A DNA stretch of 37,993 nt from Rickettsiales bacterium (GCA_031266915.1 JAISAB010000001.1:1-37993), one strand, 5' to 3'; numbered from the stretch's first letter, positions 10,540-35,111 are shown. Notes: a model not told the origin generated them from the letters alone. Numbers and translations: made by a program.

Positions 10540-11598
10540 TTAAAATGTTGCGCGCAGGCCGGCACCCAGAAACGGCAATCCCGCGGATATGCCCAGCGAC
10601 ATCCAGCCATCCACGTTTTCGCTGTATTTGTATCGAAACGACGCCATACCCGTATGCGCCAGATAGTCTTCCGCATTGTCGTCCCAGACGCCAGTGTCCG
10701 ACAACAGGTATGACGCCGACAGGCTGTATTTCAAGAAATCATAGCTGACGCCCGCGCCGACTGCGAATCCGTCCGATGCAACAACCGGATTCTCGTCATA
10801 AACGACGCGGCCGGACAACCCAAAAATCCAGCTGTTGTACTGCAGGTTTAATCCCGCGGACACCTGGGCGCGCCAATCGGCCGTGACACGCGGCGCGAAT
10901 ATATCCGTCTGAAAATTATCGGGCGAATCGATAAACGACGCGCCGAACGAAAACGCAGTTTTGGTCTTGCCGTCCGGGTCGCGATACTTGACGCCGATGT
11001 CGACCGCATATTCATAGTCGGGCGATAATCCGGCGACCGAAACGCCGTACTGCAGTGGCCTGGTCGGAACGGACACGACATTCGCGCGCAGGTCGTACCG
11101 GCCGCTGGTCAGCGTAGTGTTGGAAATAACAGGGCCGCCCAAATCTATCTCTTTGTAAAACAATGGATTGTCGTTCACGCGCAACGCGCCGACATCGGGC
11201 AATCCGACGCCCAGTTTTGTTGCGATGGAATCGGTGTATCCGACCTCGGCCCGGCCCAGCGACGCGTCTTCGAAAAACAGGAATGCGTCGCGCTGCCATT
11301 TATCCTGATAGACAGCCAGTTCGTCAATCGCATAGACCGCGCCGATTGTCCGCCGCGCGCCAAGCGAATAATTGAACTGACCGCGCACGCGCCAGTCGTC
11401 GACAAATGCTGGCGCGTCGAAATCCGGTTCGATAACGCCGATTGTGCCATAGCCGTTTAATCTGAAGCCGTATCCGCCGTGGTTGTATTCAAGGGCGGAG
11501 GCCACAAAAGGCAGAAGGCAAAAGGCAGAAGTCAGAAGGCAGAAGGAACGCAATCTGCGGATGCAATTTTTTAGTAAAAATTTGTTTGCAAAAATCAT
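10540..11598 (-). CDS. Porin-like outer-membrane protein
   Basis: The 352-aa protein has a long signal peptide (about 1-35, ending FVASA) and then an all-beta body. Glycine- and aromatic-rich strands (YGFRLNGYGTIGV, YAVDIGVKYRDPDG, YNSWIFGLSGRVVY) and a C-terminal Phe suggest a 16-strand-like general porin. The conserved-looking start LEYNHGGYGFRLNGYGTIGV resembles Gram-negative porins. The hydrophobic core of the signal peptide (CLLTSAFCLLPF) is encoded by an AAGGCAG heptamer tract. Its ATG overlaps the rpoH stop codon (ATGA), so translation may be coupled to rpoH. Substrate unknown. Confidence 0.75.
   Translation of the reverse strand: MIFANKFLLKNCIRRLRSFCLLTSAFCLLPFVASALEYNHGGYGFRLNGYGTIGVIEPDFDAPAFVDDWRVRGQFNYSLGARRTIGAVYAIDELAVYQDKWQRDAFLFFEDASLGRAEVGYTDSIATKLGVGLPDVGALRVNDNPLFYKEIDLGGPVISNTTLTSGRYDLRANVVSVPTRPLQYGVSVAGLSPDYEYAVDIGVKYRDPDGKTKTAFSFGASFIDSPDNFQTDIFAPRVTADWRAQVSAGLNLQYNSWIFGLSGRVVYDENPVVASDGFAVGAGVSYDFLKYSLSASYLLSDTGVWDDNAEDYLAHTGMASFRYKYSENVDGWMSLGISAGLPFLGAGLRATF
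11507..11549 (-). repeat. AAGGCAG heptamer repeat encoding the porin signal peptide
   Basis: Six degenerate units (AAGGCAG, AAGGCAA, AAGTCAG) run through the h-region of the signal peptide. The same family is intergenic at 36478-36557, 37108-37142 and 37214-37232. Confidence 0.85.
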
Positions 11599-12650: not shown

Positions 12651-13301
12651 ATGGCGACGATTTTAGAGAGGAATAAAAACCTGAAACCGAATAAAAAAAC
12701 AACGGAAGAATACGCGGAAGACGCCCTGTACCGCGAGGTATGGGAAGACGTGAACAACGAAAAGACCCAGCGCTTTTTGAAAAAATATTCACGTTATTTG
12801 ATTGCGGGCGCCCTGGCCGTTATGATTGCGGTGACCGCGATTCAGATGCTGCGGCATCATAATCAAGCGTCCCGGGTGGCGGCCGCGACCGCGTACGAGA
12901 CGGCAATCGATGGCGTCGACGCCGGGGCTTTGGCGTCGCTGGGTCGGAATTCATCCGGCGCGACGGCGGATTTGGCATTGTTCCAATCGTGGATGCTGAC
13001 CGAAGACACGGCGACGCTGGAAAAGCTGGCGCGCGACGGCCATACGCGCGATTTCCGCGACTTAGCGAAATTGCATCTGGCCGCGGTCAATGGCGACGCG
13101 ATGGACGCGAAAGCCTTTGAAAATTCCCTGTCGGATTTGAATACGAGATCGTCCCCTTATTATTACAGCGCGATGCTGCTGATTGCGCAAAAGTATCTGG
13201 CGTCTGGCGACCGCGCAACTGCCGATGTCTGGCTGGATAAAATCATCAATGACCAGGCCGCGCCGTTAATTGTCGCCGCGAATGCACAGACGCTGCGCTA
13301 G
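12651..13301 (+). CDS. YfgM-like membrane-anchored TPR protein
   Basis: The 216-aa protein has an N-terminal cytoplasmic segment with EDALYREVWEDVNNEKTQRFLKKY, one transmembrane helix (about 50-68, LIAGALAVMIAVTAIQML) and a periplasmic helical domain of TPR_21/YfgM type (for example FQSWMLTEDTATLEKLA, LLIAQKYLASGDRATADVWL). YfgM works with SecYEG and periplasmic chaperones. The start at 12651 has AGGAGA 7 nt upstream; the reading frame is open further 5' without support. The following gene is BamB-like, matching the yfgM-bamB order known in other proteobacteria. Confidence 0.8.
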   Translation: MATILERNKNLKPNKKTTEEYAEDALYREVWEDVNNEKTQRFLKKYSRYLIAGALAVMIAVTAIQMLRHHNQASRVAAATAYETAIDGVDAGALASLGRNSSGATADLALFQSWMLTEDTATLEKLARDGHTRDFRDLAKLHLAAVNGDAMDAKAFENSLSDLNTRSSPYYYSAMLLIAQKYLASGDRATADVWLDKIINDQAAPLIVAANAQTLR

Positions 13302-13304
13302 CAG

Positions 13305-13345
13305 TTAACAGATAGTAGATAGGAGATACGAGATAGGAGATATAA
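13305..13345 (+). repeat. AGATAGG heptamer tract carrying a ribosome-binding site
   Basis: AGATAGT, AGATAGG, AGATACG, AGATAGG, AGATATA units fill the 48-bp gap. The last AGGAGA (about 13335-13340) sits 9-10 nt before the GTG start of the BamB-like gene. Confidence 0.8.
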
Positions 13346-13349
13346 ATAA

Positions 13350-14219
13350 GTGAAATGGATAAGTGATTTTTTTAGGAACAAAATATTGAACAGTTCAAAA
13401 TCTGTTACCTGTGCTCTATGCTCTGTTCACTGCTCATCATACCTTATCCATCATCCATCATCCATCATCTATTACCTGCGCTCTTCGCTCTTCGCTCTTC
13501 GCTCTATCGTTCTGTGCTCTGTGCTCTGTGTTGCCTGTTCCAAAAACGACCCTGTTTTGCCTGGAACGCGAGAGGCTATATTTCCAGGCTCGGCATTGAC
13601 GGCGACCGGCGCGCCGGTTCCGAACCTACCCGACAACGCGCCAGCGCGCGCGGCCACGGATTGCCCGTATACCCAGGATTCTTCGAACACCGTCTGGAAC
13701 GGCGCGAAAAAGATATTCAGCGGGTACCCGACCAGCAACTCGGTCACCAGCGCGCAAAAACCGACCTGTGGCGGCAAGTTTGTATATGCGGGCCTGACAA
13801 CAGGTGAATTGGTTAAAATCAACGGCGCAAACCGGAATATCGAATGGATTGCGGACATTTATCGCCAGAGCAATCTGACCGGCGGCGCGACCATGTCTGA
13901 TATATTGGCGCCCGTGGTTATGGACGGCAGCAATGTGTACGCCGGCGGTTTGGGCGACGCGTTTTGCAAACTGCGGGCGTCCGACGGGAAAAAGATATGG
14001 TGTTTGGACATCGGCGTGGCCGCGCCTTTTTTGATTATTGACCGGGCCGCGTTCGTTGTCGGCACAGACAATACATTGTACGCGATTAATACCGACAAGG
14101 GCGACATTTATTGGGCGACGCCCGTGAAATTGCAAACGGCGCCGGAATACGCGAAAAAGACGCTGACGCTGGGCCGGGAAAAGATTGACGCCGTCACCGG
14201 ATTGTTAATTAAGAATTAA
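13350..14219 (+). CDS. bamB: Short BamB-like PQQ-repeat lipoprotein
   Basis: The 289-aa protein reads from GTG. Residues about 15-60 are hydrophobic/Cys-rich, entirely encoded by heptamer repeats, and end in VLCVACSKND, a plausible but non-ideal lipobox. The mature part has two to three PQQ/quinoprotein blades (GKFVYAGLTTGELVKING, NVYAGGLGDAFCKLRASDGK, TLYAINTDKGDIYW). BamB is the propeller lipoprotein of the outer-membrane BAM complex and normally has eight blades in about 390 aa. This copy is short, so it is a reduced or decayed form. It follows the YfgM-like gene, which supports the identification. The terminal LLIKN and stop come from an ATTCTTA-type repeat. Confidence 0.6.
   Translation: MKWISDFFRNKILNSSKSVTCALCSVHCSSYLIHHPSSIIYYLRSSLFALRSIVLCSVLCVACSKNDPVLPGTREAIFPGSALTATGAPVPNLPDNAPARAATDCPYTQDSSNTVWNGAKKIFSGYPTSNSVTSAQKPTCGGKFVYAGLTTGELVKINGANRNIEWIADIYRQSNLTGGATMSDILAPVVMDGSNVYAGGLGDAFCKLRASDGKKIWCLDIGVAAPFLIIDRAAFVVGTDNTLYAINTDKGDIYWATPVKLQTAPEYAKKTLTLGREKIDAVTGLLIKN
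13384..13545 (+). repeat. Heptamer repeats encoding the BamB-like N-terminus
   Basis: GCTCTGT/GCTCTAT units (13395-13435), CCATCAT units (13442-13470, the inverse of GGATGAT) and CTCTTCG/CTCTGTG units (13478-13540) are all read in frame as the N-terminal segment. Confidence 0.85.
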
Positions 14220-19590: not shown

Positions 19591-19724
19591 AATCGTAATT
19601 CGTGACTCGTGACTTGTGATTCGCAGGATAGCGATTTTTATTTGTTTTTCTTATTTTATACTCTATTATGGCCTTGGCTTTTACCATCGTGCAAGTCACG
19701 AATTACGAATTACGAGTCACGAAT
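19591..19724. repeat. Inverted TCGTGAY heptamer tracts before lptF
   Basis: TCGTAAT/TCGTGAC/TTGTGAT units (19591-19624) and the inverse orientation (19692-19724) enclose about 70 bp. The second tract ends 3 nt before the lptF ATG. Confidence 0.85.
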
Positions 19725-19726
19725 AT

Positions 19727-20785
19727 ATGAAAATAATCAGTCGATATTTTAGAAAGCAACTGGTCGCGGTGTTTATTATGCTGCTGCTGGTTTTGACGGG
19801 GCTGGCGTGGATGCTGCAGATTATGTCCATGATGAAATTCCTGTTGAATTACGGCGTGGACATCACCAGTTTCATGGGCCTGACGTCCCTGATGATTCCG
19901 TTCATCGTTTCGATTATCATTCCGTTCGTCACGTTTATCGCGATTATCTTTGTTTACAACAAATTGATTGCAGACAACGAAGTCACGGTTTTGGCGGCCA
20001 GCGGCCTGTCGCCGCGGCAAATCGCGGGACCCGCGCTGAGCCTGGCGGCGCTGATGACCGCCATCAATCTGATTGTGAATGTTTGGATTGTCCCGTCAAC
20101 CCAGGCGAAATTCTATGACACCCAGTGGGAATTGCGATACGGCCTGGCCCATATGAAATTGCAAGAGGCCGCATTTACCGAAATCGTCGGCGGGCTGGTG
20201 GTTTACGTGGACAAAGTGTCCGGTCACGACTTGTCCCAGGTAATGCTGACCGATGACCGCAATCCAAAATCCGAAATGACCATATTCGCCGAAAAGGGCA
20301 AACTGGTCGCAACCGCGCGCGGCCTGTCCATCGTCATGACCAACGGTTCGCTGCAGTCCAAAAATGAGAATCTGACCGTCGGGACGTTCGACACGTTCGA
20401 CATGGATTTGAACGTCGCGGACAAATTAGGCGAATCCGTGTTCAAGGTCCGCCGCATTCCGACATGGGATTTGCTGGTGTCAGTCACGCACCAGGAATCG
20501 CAGAAACAGCATAAACTGGCGCTGGCGGAAATCTGCACGCGTTTGCTGAGTCCTATGATGAATTTGATTCTGGCGGCGCTGTGCGCGACGATTCTGCTGC
20601 GCTCGTCCCTGCTGCGCCGTCGCGCCAGCCTGGCGCCGGCGGCGGCGGTCGCCGCGATGGCCGCCGCGATGGCACTGTTTATGACGGCGTCCAACACGAT
20701 AACCAGCCTGACTGAACTGGGCGCTGTGGCGCTGGCCCAGTGCCTGGCGCTGGCGGGAATACTGTACGCGCTGTTCAAGAAATAA
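19727..20785 (+). CDS. lptF: LPS export permease LptF/LptG family
   Basis: The 352-aa protein has three N-terminal transmembrane helices (about 13-35, 50-80 and 98-122), a periplasmic beta-jellyroll (about 130-260, including GGLVVYVDKVSGHDLSQV) and three C-terminal helices. This is the LptF/LptG permease fold that extracts LPS from the inner membrane with LptB. LptF is chosen by position before lptD. lptG, usually adjacent, is missing from the window. The start at 19727 gives MKIISRYFRKQL, the expected N-terminus; the longer frame to 19616 only adds heptamer-encoded residues. No clear ribosome-binding site: the 30 bases upstream are TCGTGAY repeat. Confidence 0.88.
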   Translation: MKIISRYFRKQLVAVFIMLLLVLTGLAWMLQIMSMMKFLLNYGVDITSFMGLTSLMIPFIVSIIIPFVTFIAIIFVYNKLIADNEVTVLAASGLSPRQIAGPALSLAALMTAINLIVNVWIVPSTQAKFYDTQWELRYGLAHMKLQEAAFTEIVGGLVVYVDKVSGHDLSQVMLTDDRNPKSEMTIFAEKGKLVATARGLSIVMTNGSLQSKNENLTVGTFDTFDMDLNVADKLGESVFKVRRIPTWDLLVSVTHQESQKQHKLALAEICTRLLSPMMNLILAALCATILLRSSLLRRRASLAPAAAVAAMAAAMALFMTASNTITSLTELGAVALAQCLALAGILYALFKK

Positions 20786-20787
20786 CG

Positions 20788-22815
20788 ATGAAACATTTGC
20801 TATTTGCTATTTGCTATTTGCTATTTGCCGGCGCGGCCGGCGCGGCCGGCGCGGCCAGCCTGAACATGGACGCGCCAAAGACAATCACCGCGCCGAAAAT
20901 CGAATACAACATCAAATCGTCGGCAATCAAGACAACCGGCAAGACCGAGATTTCAAACGCATCCGGTCAGAAAATCACATTGGTCGATTCTTATATCGCG
21001 AACAAGGGCGCCGATGCGTCCGGCCGGGATATTCAGCTTTGGCTGGGCCAGAACGTGCATGTGACCGCCCAAACTGTAGAACGCCGTGCTGAATCCACCG
21101 TATCGACGCATGCAGTTTTCACCGCTTGCTATGGCTGTGACGATTACGGCAACGCGTGGGAGATTTCAACATCCGCTATAAAGTACGACATGGATGACCA
21201 TATGATGGAATTCTATAACCCGGTGTTCTGGGCTTATGGCGTTCCCGTTCTTTGGTTTCCGTTCCTGGAAATGCCCGACCCGTCGGTCAAGCACAAAAGC
21301 GGCCTGTTGCTGCCGAATTTCAATTCCACGAACAATATGGGCGCGCAGTTCAACCTGCCGGTTTACATCGCGTTAAGCGACGCTCACGACATGACCGCGA
21401 CGTGGTCGTACCTGACGCAAGAAAACCCGCTGTTCCAGATCGAGCATCGCCTGAACGCGCCCCATTCCGAATTCAGGACCAACGGGTCGTTCACGCGCAA
21501 CCGCGAGGGCGAAAACCGCTGGCATATTTTCAACAGCGACGTCGTCGAAATGGGCGAAAACATTCGCACGACGATTTATTTGGAACGTTCGTCCGACAAG
21601 ACTTATCTGCAGAAATACGGATTCTATAACGACCAGCCGTATCTGGATTCCGGCGCCAAGGTCGAATTGTTCGGCGAATCCGGCTATGCCGTCGCCGACG
21701 CGCATATCTTTCAGGAATTGCGCAGCAACCGCCGCCAGCAGCAGGTCGCCGTCCCCAGCGGCGACATACTGCCGAACATTCGCGGCGTTTATCAGACCCG
21801 GCCGCTGTACGGTGAAACCTATCTGTCCCTGAACGCCGATGTTCTGGGAATATCGGGCAGCGCCGCCGCCAGCCAGCGCGTCATCGGCGAATCCAGAATC
21901 ATATCCCCGTGGACTCTGCGGGGGGGAAACCGCGTGACGGCCTCTCTTTCCGCGCGGTACGATATTTATAATTTCGAGAATACGGAAATGCTGGACGGCG
22001 CCGTCGAATCCGGATTGCGGTCGCGCTTTTTGCCCAGCGGGTATTTGGAATGGTCGCTGCCGATGATGAAAGGTGGTGGAAAATGGACGCAGATTGTCGA
22101 ACCGCGCGCCCGGATGACCGTCATGCAGGATTCGTCCGACGCGGCGTACGCGTTGAACAATGATTCGGTCGGCGCGCTGCTGTCCGACGCGACGCTGTTT
22201 TCGAACAATCGTTTTTCCGGATTGGATTTGTGGGAAAACGGAACGTTCGCCGATTACGGCGTCCGCTGGGCCGCGTTCGACGGCGACAGCCATAATGTCG
22301 AGGTCTTTCTGGGCCAGTCCTATGATTTCGCCAATCGCCCGGACACCGACCCAAACAGCGGATTTCACAACGGCGCGTCCGATTACGTCGGGCGCATCGG
22401 ATACGAAAACGACAGGTGGATGGCGCTGGGGACGCGGTTCCGATTCGCGGAAAATAATCTGTCGCTGCGCCATTTGGAAACTGCAGCGAAAATCGGCACA
22501 AGCCGGAATTATTTCAGCTTTGGCCACATCTGGGCGGCGCAGTTTACCGACGCCGAGACCTTGGGCGACGACATCAACGAACTGACGGCGGGAACGAACA
22601 TTTATCTGACAGGGCGCTTTGGAATAAAGTTCAATGCGATTTACAATATAACTGACGAAAAATTCCAAAGGCATACTGGCGGCGTGTTTTATAATCATCC
22701 GTGCTATTTCCTGTCGCTGGAATACCGGCGCGACAACACGCACAAGGAAGACTATGTCGGAAACACGACTTTCCAGTTCCGCTTCGGCATGGCCATCAAC
22801 GGCGTCAAACAATGA
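20788..22815 (+). CDS. lptD: LPS-assembly outer-membrane protein LptD
   Basis: The 675-aa protein has a signal peptide, an N-terminal LptA-like beta-jellyroll (about 28-130) and the conserved region PVFWAYGVPVLWFPFLEMPD, which precedes the LptD barrel. A long C-terminal barrel ends in FQFRFGMAING. It inserts LPS into the outer leaflet. It lacks much of the spacer seen in larger LptD proteins. The start is 2 nt after the lptF stop, implying coupling. The signal peptide is encoded by four to five TTTGCTA heptamers followed by three tandem 9-mers GGCGCGGCC (GAA x3). A Cys pair (CYGC) occurs at about residue 110. Confidence 0.9.
   Translation: MKHLLFAICYLLFAGAAGAAGAASLNMDAPKTITAPKIEYNIKSSAIKTTGKTEISNASGQKITLVDSYIANKGADASGRDIQLWLGQNVHVTAQTVERRAESTVSTHAVFTACYGCDDYGNAWEISTSAIKYDMDDHMMEFYNPVFWAYGVPVLWFPFLEMPDPSVKHKSGLLLPNFNSTNNMGAQFNLPVYIALSDAHDMTATWSYLTQENPLFQIEHRLNAPHSEFRTNGSFTRNREGENRWHIFNSDVVEMGENIRTTIYLERSSDKTYLQKYGFYNDQPYLDSGAKVELFGESGYAVADAHIFQELRSNRRQQQVAVPSGDILPNIRGVYQTRPLYGETYLSLNADVLGISGSAAASQRVIGESRIISPWTLRGGNRVTASLSARYDIYNFENTEMLDGAVESGLRSRFLPSGYLEWSLPMMKGGGKWTQIVEPRARMTVMQDSSDAAYALNNDSVGALLSDATLFSNNRFSGLDLWENGTFADYGVRWAAFDGDSHNVEVFLGQSYDFANRPDTDPNSGFHNGASDYVGRIGYENDRWMALGTRFRFAENNLSLRHLETAAKIGTSRNYFSFGHIWAAQFTDAETLGDDINELTAGTNIYLTGRFGIKFNAIYNITDEKFQRHTGGVFYNHPCYFLSLEYRRDNTHKEDYVGNTTFQFRFGMAINGVKQ
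20795..20856 (+). repeat. TTTGCTA heptamers and GGCGCGGCC 9-mers encoding the LptD signal peptide
   Basis: Heptamers at 20795-20828 encode LLFAICYLLFA. Three perfect 9-mers (20830-20856) encode GAAGAAGAA before the mature part. Confidence 0.9.
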
Positions 22816-22848
22816 AAGAATAAATAATAGAGAATAAAGAATAAATGA
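22814..22848. repeat. TATTCTY heptamer tract between lptD and the surA-like gene
   Basis: Inverse units GAATAAA/GAATAAT/GAATAAG follow the lptD stop codon. With the same family in the next signal peptide (22906-22931) they form an inverted pair around the ribosome-binding site. Confidence 0.8.
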
Positions 22849-22881
22849 TTTATAATCACTTTTAGTCGGAGAAATTTTACC

Positions 22882-23718
22882 ATGAAAACACTTTTCAAAC
22901 CTTTACTCTTTATTCTTTATTCTTTATTTATTTGCATCGGCGCCGCCGATGCCGCCAGCGTCGTTGCAACAGTGGCCGGCCGGCCGGTTACCGACGCCGA
23001 CATCACGGCGCGCGCGGCGCTGATGAACAAGCAGGGCGACGTGTCCACGGACAACCGCAAGCGGGCGCTGCAGAACATTATCGACGACCAGATTAAAACT
23101 GATTACGCCGCAAACTTCAAGGTCACTGTAACCGACGCCGACATCGACAAGGAATTACAGGCCATGAATCTGGGTGAATTGTCTGCGACCCAGCGCGCGA
23201 TGGCGAAAACCGCCGTGGCCGCGAACATCGCCTGGCAGATTGTGATCGCCCGCACGATTATCCCGACAATCAAGGTATCCGACGAAGAAATAGCCGAAGA
23301 AAAACACGACCTGGAACGCGCGCGCGGCCTGCCGATTGAAATGACGATTGTGCGCCTGATTGACATCCCAGAATCCGCGGCCACCAAGCTGACCAAACCC
23401 AAATCATGCGACGACGCCATGGAACAGGTGCAGCGGCTGGGCGGCCAGCCGCAGAAATTCACCGCTGCGCAGTACGAATTGTCCGCCGATATTCGCGAAC
23501 GCGTCATCGGCCTGCCGAAACTGACCTGGTCGGCGCGGCGGGATGACTCGGTCCTTTTGGTGTGCTCGGAAAAAAAGACAGCCGAGTACGGCAAGCTGGA
23601 CGAGGTCATCAAACAAAACGCCGTTTACAAAAAAGCCATGTTTATGGCCGACCAGCAACTGAAACAACTGCGCCGCAAGGCCGTCGTCGTCGTCCACGAC
23701 AGCAGATACAAACAGTAG
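22882..23718 (+). CDS. surA: SurA-like periplasmic chaperone lacking a clear PPIase domain
   Basis: The 278-aa protein has a signal peptide (about 1-25, cleaved after ADAA) and a SurA N-terminal domain (VVATVAGRPVTDADITARAALM, IDDQIKTDYA). A degenerate region follows where the parvulin PPIase domains normally lie; no intact parvulin signature is seen and it is much shorter than E. coli SurA (428 aa). SurA escorts barrel proteins such as LptD. The position after lptD matches the usual order lptD-surA-pdxA-rsmA, but pdxA and rsmA are missing. GGAG lies 11 nt before the ATG. The signal-peptide core FILYSLFI is encoded by TTTATTC heptamers. Confidence 0.75.
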   Translation: MKTLFKPLLFILYSLFICIGAADAASVVATVAGRPVTDADITARAALMNKQGDVSTDNRKRALQNIIDDQIKTDYAANFKVTVTDADIDKELQAMNLGELSATQRAMAKTAVAANIAWQIVIARTIIPTIKVSDEEIAEEKHDLERARGLPIEMTIVRLIDIPESAATKLTKPKSCDDAMEQVQRLGGQPQKFTAAQYELSADIRERVIGLPKLTWSARRDDSVLLVCSEKKTAEYGKLDEVIKQNAVYKKAMFMADQQLKQLRRKAVVVVHDSRYKQ

Positions 23719-26546: not shown

Positions 26547-27557
<1,011 letters not shown>

Positions 27558-34686: not shown

Positions 34687-35111
34687 TCGATAGTCATTAG
34701 TGAATAGTGCTTAGTTTATAGTGCATAGTTAATAGTTCACTAATCACTATGCACTATTCACTAGTGATTAAAAAAACCGCCATCCCCCAAGTTTTTGTAA
34801 CGCTGACGCTAACAAAAACTTTCCCCCTTTATCAAGGGGGACTAGTGCCAAACCAAGATGAACAAGAGCTGAACCAAGTGGACAAGTGTCAAGTCTTGTG
34901 CCAATGATCTGTTCTGGGCTATCGCCCATCTTGTTTTATGCTCGTTCCCTGTATCTGACACCTGCCCCTCTTGTTTCACGCTTGTTCCTAACACTTGACG
35001 CTGGCCCCTCTTGTTAAAGAGGGGAGAATTTTCCGGCAACTTGTTGCCGATGAAAATTCGGGGAGATTACTGGTTAGTCAATAGTCATCTGCCTATGGTC
35101 AGTAGTGTTTT
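34687..35111. repeat. Module C flank: heptamers, hairpins and 21-bp repeats
   Basis: No gene. TAGTNNN palindrome (34687-34770); AGTTTTTGT/ACAAAAACT hairpin and the CCCCCTT/AAGGGGG hairpin (34789-34842); two 20- to 21-bp units (34844-34883); AAGTGTCAAGTCTTGTG; CCCCTC/GAGGGG and GAATTTTC..GAAAATTC hairpins (35005-35061). Same order as 14873-15370, shorter. Confidence 0.85.

Follow-up and report, generated by a model that had tools for sequence, protein, structure and literature searches.

Short tandem arrays of heptanucleotides, many of them arranged as inverted-complement pairs, are dispersed through the genomes of several genera within one family of Alphaproteobacteria that have small genomes and come mostly from guts, are strongly enriched in the leader codons of exported proteins, recur there in different genera and are read predominantly on a hydrophobic strand in leaders and as hydrophilic peptides in protein loops. 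The best reading of these observations, and probably the correct one, is that heptamer-armed palindromes are invasive, are tolerated at permissive codons and are filtered there by hydrophobicity. The pattern points to invasion and tolerance rather than to adaptation. The window, that is, the whole stretch of 37,993 nucleotides that was analysed, covers the initial 38 kb of contig 3 in G000, a draft genome of 1.09 Mb.

The initial annotation had placed heptamer arrays in the leaders of an LptD, a SurA-like protein, a porin and a BamB-like protein, and TRF locates all of them at the positions it named. The gene starts, which are homology-guided guesses, are ATG at 20788 for LptD, ATG at 22882 for the SurA-like gene, ATG at 11598 on the minus strand for the porin and GTG at 13350 for the BamB-like gene. 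The main features of the window are the following.

11494-11598, minus strand: predicted signal peptide of the porin (Porin_4-like), MIFANKFLLKNCIRRLRSFCLLTSAFCLLPFVASA
11508-11546, minus strand: array of 5.6 AAGGCAG units (TRF; the gene reads CTGCCTT), coding the LPSAFCL-type repeats of the porin core
13310-13342, plus strand: AGATAGG array upstream of the BamB-like start codon, within the 5' UTR; it belongs to a dispersed cassette of UTR, GTG and leader
13350-13538, plus strand: BamB-like lipoprotein leader, from GTG to the lipobox Cys (LCVAC); PQQ_2, E=1.6e-11
13435-13530, plus strand: three successive arrays in the BamB-like leader, CATCATC (13435-13469), CGCTCTT (13479-13505) and TCTGTGC (13511-13530), all by TRF
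20788-20859, plus strand: predicted LptD signal peptide, MKHLLFAICYLLFAGAAGAAGAAS; LptD CDS 20788-22815, PF04453, E=1.3e-36
20795-20828, plus strand: perfect array (ATTTGCT)4.9 (100% match, TRF), coding the LptD hydrophobic core
20827-20856, plus strand: 9-mer array (GCCGGCGCG)3.3 (TRF), coding AGAAGAAGA, the c-region of the LptD signal
22815-22845, plus strand: 5' arm, AAAGAAT array directly 3' of lptD, in the surA 5' UTR
22882-22953, plus strand: predicted SurA-like signal peptide, MKTLFKPLLFILYSLFICIGAADA
22901-22928, plus strand: 3' arm, array of 4.0 CTTTATT units (TRF), coding the SurA-like hydrophobic core
34690-34763, no strand assigned: heptamer arrays ATAGTGA and TTCACTA, an instance of an inverted pair between genes

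The lptD gene starts two bases past the end of a gene of the LptF/LptG family (19616-20785), and its leader array has no inverted partner within 200 nt. The AAAGAAT array at 22815-22845 is the inverted complement of the SurA-like leader array (partner score 26, -67 to -36 from the start). The SD sequence (GGAG) and the start codon of the SurA-like gene sit in the loop between these two arms, and the region that contains them folds with z=-3.5. The name SurA-like is tentative, as it leans on gene order, the gene being placed behind lptD, and on a weak profile match (Pfam SurA_N_3, E=0.0018) that lies below the curated cut-off. The further claim that the hydrophobic cores of the four leaders are translated from heptamer families stands for the LptD, SurA-like, porin and BamB-like proteins, with one part of the BamB-like leader removed from it. 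There the core (LFALRSIVLCSVLCVAC/SK) is coded only by the last two families, CGCTCTT and TCTGTGC, and the CATCATC stretch codes an SSIIHHP-like, non-hydrophobic sequence. The initial picture was also incomplete, as arrays are found genome-wide, in protein loops and as inverted pairs.

The period of seven is specific. Across 389 kb of G000, exact runs of at least 12 matches number 48, 59 and 25 at lags 7, 14 and 21, with hardly any at other lags, and 777 kb of the same genome contain 216 lag-7 arrays against 0-5 at the other lags between 5 and 13. The relatives, found through LptD, are drafts labelled Alphaproteobacteria or Rickettsiales, many with host-gut isolate names. Two other genera are rich in arrays, with 116 in 382 kb of G004 and 43 in 154 kb of G013, and the relative G010 has none at lag 7 in 364 kb. 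The array-rich samples comprise approximately 777, 776 and 154 kb of draft genomes, one per species. Arrays are short and impure, the longest perfect tract having a median of 3.1 and a maximum of 4.9 units, and their arms fall into 68 and 53 families in two genomes. Coding density as called is 74% in array-rich G000 and 91% in array-free G010, and spacers seem expanded where arrays abound. Loss of mismatch repair was considered as the cause of the arrays and rejected, since mutS is present in G000 and G004, although the MutS of G000 itself carries heptamer inserts.

The proposed overlap of signal peptides with period-7 DNA beyond chance is borne out. The exported class was set by orthologues in array-free G010, and is hence non-circular, with homology-guided starts and alternative reference starts. 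The gene caller trims repeat-rich starts and was not used for leaders without homology. An array lies in the first 40 codons of 24/133 exported genes and of 6/334 other genes (odds ratio 12, p=1.9e-9). The enrichment is seen in each of three genomes (p=1e-3, 2e-4 and 4e-4) and at every score threshold tried, and the same test at seven other lags yields 0-2 of 133. An earlier ortholog test was weak (p=0.07, 0.19 and 0.02), having counted 5' UTR arrays as coding and classed exported genes with trimmed starts as cytosolic. In the 150 bases upstream of the start, arrays are present in 30/133 exported and 62/334 other genes (p=0.37). Similarly, the fraction of bases in arrays at -90 to -1 is about 0.05-0.08 in both classes; over codons 1-30 it is 0.04-0.09 in exported genes and below 0.01 in the others, a roughly tenfold drop at the start codon.

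Three of the six non-exported exceptions are, by sequence, a lipoprotein, a secreted protein and a prepilin-like protein, and the arrays of the other three are non-hydrophobic. The idea that the repeats provide a route for new export signals, understood as new targeting, thus finds no example among these six. The process is turnover of existing export signals, and no gain of export by a cytosolic protein was found. The 24 cases and two re-assigned genes represent 19 distinct reference genes, the exported reference genes seen being 82. None of these 26 array-bearing exported genes has a later start, beyond the array, from which a signal peptide would still be made, which goes against the alternative that the start codons lie downstream of the repeats. 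Among prepilin-like leaders, 4/7 contain arrays, and the peptides there need not be hydrophobic.

The leaders also differ from other locations in which strand is read. A stop-free, hydrophobic consensus peptide (KD of at least 0.5) is encoded by 21/26 signal-peptide arrays and by 19% of intergenic arrays, the latter read on either strand (p=2e-11). Upstream of genes, arrays of the hydrophobic type divide 34:26 between the two orientations, with no clear strand preference. In contrast with signal peptides, the 89 gene-internal arrays with homology on both sides are hydrophilic, with a median KD of -0.8 versus 2.2 (p=7e-14). The AGAGCGC family illustrates the two outcomes, as it encodes a RAQSAER-type peptide in TruB and other loops and ALCALRS in leaders. 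Signal peptides were judged by a home-made rule that considers n-region charge, the hydrophobic core and a cleavage motif or lipobox. Their predicted length is 23 residues with arrays, 24 without and 23 in G010, and the rule-based n/h/c test is passed by 21/24 array leaders versus 75/109 array-free ones. LptD has an essential role. The array leaders are putatively functional in export, judging from their design, from the essentiality of LptD and from the absence of an alternative start.

A probable mechanism connects these observations. Short heptamer arrays number in the hundreds in several lineages of the family, many of them in inverted-complement pairs, and would pile up in tolerant DNA: spacers, 5' UTRs, protein loops and, in genes for exported proteins, the leader codons. 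Signal peptides are nearly as permissive as spacers, since no more than a positive n-region, some 7-15 hydrophobic residues and a cleavage site is required and the peptide is then removed. As 7 and 3 are coprime, a heptamer array encodes the same heptapeptide in every frame, and a stop-free, pyrimidine-rich array can therefore give a hydrophobic core in any register. TTTGCTA is read as AICYLLF, TTTATTC as ILYSLFF, TTTTGCC as AFCLLPF and CTGTGCT as ALCSVLC, and arrays of these units give hydrophobic cores of a suitable length. Purifying selection would then retain mostly hydrophobic, stop-free strands in leaders and hydrophilic strands in protein loops. The palindrome often spans the start codon, with an arm in the UTR followed by a loop that contains the SD sequence, the start and the n-region, and then by the arm that encodes the core.

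Comparison with relatives supports the view that the repeats replaced ancestral signal sequences, as had been suggested from the window. LptD and SurA-like signal peptides are ordinary and free of repeats both in the congener G001 and in the near relative G007 (MKFFTFIFAAFLIPPALHAAG, MKFFKIILAALLLPSALCAVG; MKSLGLKTLPAVVASVLSLQSLFA, MKIFGLKTCAIVATCIALAQPSFG), and the porin leader of G001 is likewise ordinary. The DNA flanking the leader aligns between G000 and the relatives without arrays. Together these two observations indicate that the arrays most likely entered after the split, and the leader arrays of G000 are thus most likely recent replacements of ordinary signal peptides. Leaders of the same proteins contain arrays in other genera, built from TGCCTTT, TTTATTC, TTGTTAA and ACTTTTT in SurA, TGCCTTT, TCGTGTT and TTGTTAA in porins, TGCCTTT, TTTGCTC, ATTTGCT and ACTTCCT in BamB and TTCTTCC in LptD. 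On a maximum-likelihood tree built from mature SurA-like sequences, seven changes of the array state of the leader are required, each at a single tip. One of these changes, AAGAAAC in G022, is not a core but extends the N-terminus with hydrophilic residues. The TTTATTC array in surA is shared by G000, G004 and G005, which are distant genera. The occurrence of the same heptamer in the same gene of distant genera is unpredicted by pure neutrality, although the hydrophobic filter narrows the choice. The genes that are hit differ between genera.

The arrays are often organised in inverted pairs. A partner of the same heptamer family in inverted-complement orientation lies within 150 nt of 83/216, 133/207 and 23/43 arrays in the three genomes, compared with only 5, 2 and 1 direct partners and with 0, 1 and 0 matches in the unrelated-family control. 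Pairs are placed between genes, inside genes or with one arm in a gene, and loop lengths fall mainly into two groups, of about 7-25 and 50-80 bases. Plain replication slippage of low-constraint DNA, by which signal peptides would gather any microsatellite with no element involved, is an unlikely source of the arrays. In many bacteria, heptanucleotides are more common than any other long simple repeat (PMC4679880, PMC4692102), SSRs are enriched near bacterial N-termini according to Lin and Kussell, as cited in PMC4692102, and single-arm arrays do occur. Slippage, however, yields direct neighbours, and here inverted partners exceed direct ones by about 30 to 1. Whole arm-core-arm insertions within proteins and the presence of mutS in G000 and G004 also argue against it. 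Mirror copying of one arm from the other was tried as a source of the pairs and rejected, the similarity of an arm to its own partner being 0.79 versus 0.80 for same-family partners (p=0.2).

In the leaders, the partner arm lies upstream in about 13/31 arrays, nearly always before the start codon, and downstream in none of the 31. With the partner upstream of the start codon, the SD sequence, the start codon and the n-region come to lie in the loop, and the leader repeat is the 3' arm. This asymmetry, together with the fold of the surA region, would suit selected regulatory hairpins, in which translation is controlled by an mRNA stem made of the two arms that enclose the start codon, the leader arm being a by-product of selection for pairing. 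Such an explanation is nevertheless rather improbable: pairs are common between genes and some are wholly intragenic, paired arms match no better than other arms of the family, and close relatives possess the same genes without arrays. In addition, most array leaders, including that of LptD, have no detectable partner arm, and pairing may therefore not explain how those arrays arose.

It is very unlikely that the arrays act as phase-variation switches, with copy changes of 7 bases shifting the frame of the leader and thereby toggling the production of envelope proteins in the manner of Neisseria opa. Envelope genes do have arrays at their 5' ends, and each gain or loss of a unit that is not a multiple of three shifts the frame, as the CTCTT repeats of the opa signal peptide do (PMC4534519, PMC3899988). 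However, the arrays are short and impure and lack long pure tracts, are equally frequent upstream of cytosolic genes, affect core assembly genes (lptD, surA-like and bamB-like) and occupy a gene set that is not conserved between genera. In H. influenzae most phase-variable heptanucleotide tracts contain 6-38 units (PMC2651432). The likeness to opa is nonetheless real, as LptD, the porin and others have a non-3n tandem unit in the 5' coding region, and in opa such a repeat is likewise translated within the signal peptide of an outer-membrane protein (PMC4534519, PMC3899988). The opa system consists of one pentamer in one gene family, with variable copy number and a phase switch. In contrast, the arrays described here comprise many heptamer families in many unrelated envelope genes, recur between genera, are dispersed genome-wide and often form inverted pairs. 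Some Helicobacter outer-membrane protein genes also carry CT repeats.

Rickettsia palindromic elements (RPE) are palindromes of about 150 bp scattered in a small alphaproteobacterial genome and inserted in frame inside unrelated genes (PMC10969869). A dispersed inverted-repeat structure and in-frame insertion into unrelated protein genes, features that are RPE- or MITE-like, are found here also. However, RPE families have a conserved sequence and peptide, whereas here dozens of arm families are present per genome, the core is mostly unconserved and, unlike RPE, the arrays enter leaders as well as loops. The absence of long pure tracts thus separates these arrays from phase-variation loci and the absence of a conserved sequence separates them from RPE. 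Heptanucleotide repeats between genes are known as cyanobacterial heptamers, as TAACTGA in Beggiatoaceae and as GGGNATC in Xanthomonas and Nostoc (PMC4679880, PMC4692102). They resemble the present arrays in being short, genome-wide, mostly intergenic and near start codons, but consist of one or few motifs per genome, and no report of signal-peptide use or general inverted pairing was found for them. Borg tandem repeats arise independently in coding DNA and are enriched in extracellular proteins (PMC9879509); in contrast to heptamers, their in-gene units are multiples of three and lie mostly in disordered regions rather than in signal-peptide cores. The open-access papers searched contain no description of inverted heptamer pairs throughout a genome, nor of signal peptides repeatedly replaced by such pairs. 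Heptamer-armed palindromes are apparently a class not yet described.

Invasion of tolerant DNA by heptamer-armed palindromes is also consistent with what is found inside genes. There, 29/89 gene-internal arrays lie in insertions relative to a reference, which include in-frame arm-core-arm units of 37 aa in a UvrC-like protein (G004) and 36 aa in TruB (G000) and a 26 aa in-frame insert in MutS. A more specific proposal is that the palindromes constitute a distinct element with interchangeable arms, which spreads and repeatedly lands around start codons, its 3' arm serving as the export signal and hydropathy picking the arm family and strand. This remains tentative and is somewhat doubtful at present. 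If it were true, the DNA concerned would be mobile or would extend itself, and its period of 7, being coprime with 3, would allow it to be read in every frame. Loops mostly do not cluster, the core families among 106 loops having only 14, 7 and 4 members. A conserved core was rejected as the signature of an element, since only these small clusters exist and the G004 core TGTCC-N8-GGACA is without arrays on both sides in 15/30 copies.

These genomes offer a replicated natural experiment on the minimal information of a signal peptide, in which low-complexity DNA has overwritten the core in envelope-assembly proteins many times, with seven changes at surA, and has apparently left the signals usable, while length is conserved and the strand is chosen by hydropathy. 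They also present repeat invasion of coding DNA filtered differently by location, the same family contributing a hydrophobic strand to signal peptides and a hydrophilic strand to loops.

Several individual loci display further detail. The G000 gene for MutS (L033 1793-4582, on contig 3 to the right of the window) has two in-frame heptamer inserts, SSNHESRVTSH and SEFKVQGSKFKYSG, the latter within the MutS_V domain, and the neighbouring TruB gene (L033 4575-5594) contains the 36-residue palindromic insert. In G004, heptamer arms belonging to various families enclose copies of a palindromic core, TGTCCATTATAATGGACA, for example at L176 15680-15744, L179 14980 and L183 13969, with arrays on both sides in 15/30 copies. 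In G000, a 65-bp loop between heptamer arms, of the AGATAGG family where looked at, occurs in seven copies (L031 6075, L032 10793, L034 144 and 19263, L035 152, L046 695 and L049 624), several of them near contig ends, and is a candidate conserved element. A cassette of about 140 bp in the same genome, composed of an AGATAGG arm, a GTG start, a VKWISNFFKNK... leader and further arrays, stands ahead of several genes for exported or prepilin-like proteins that are not related to one another, the BamB-like gene included. Its copies lie at 13301-13440 of the window, L039 12533-12669, 8311-8185 and 13912-14037, L154 11530-11449 and L034 1640-1564, and the longer ones are 80-82% identical. The window also contains, at 27466-27500, a perfect (TG)17.5 dinucleotide tract, which is much purer than the heptamer arrays and represents another kind of simple repeat.
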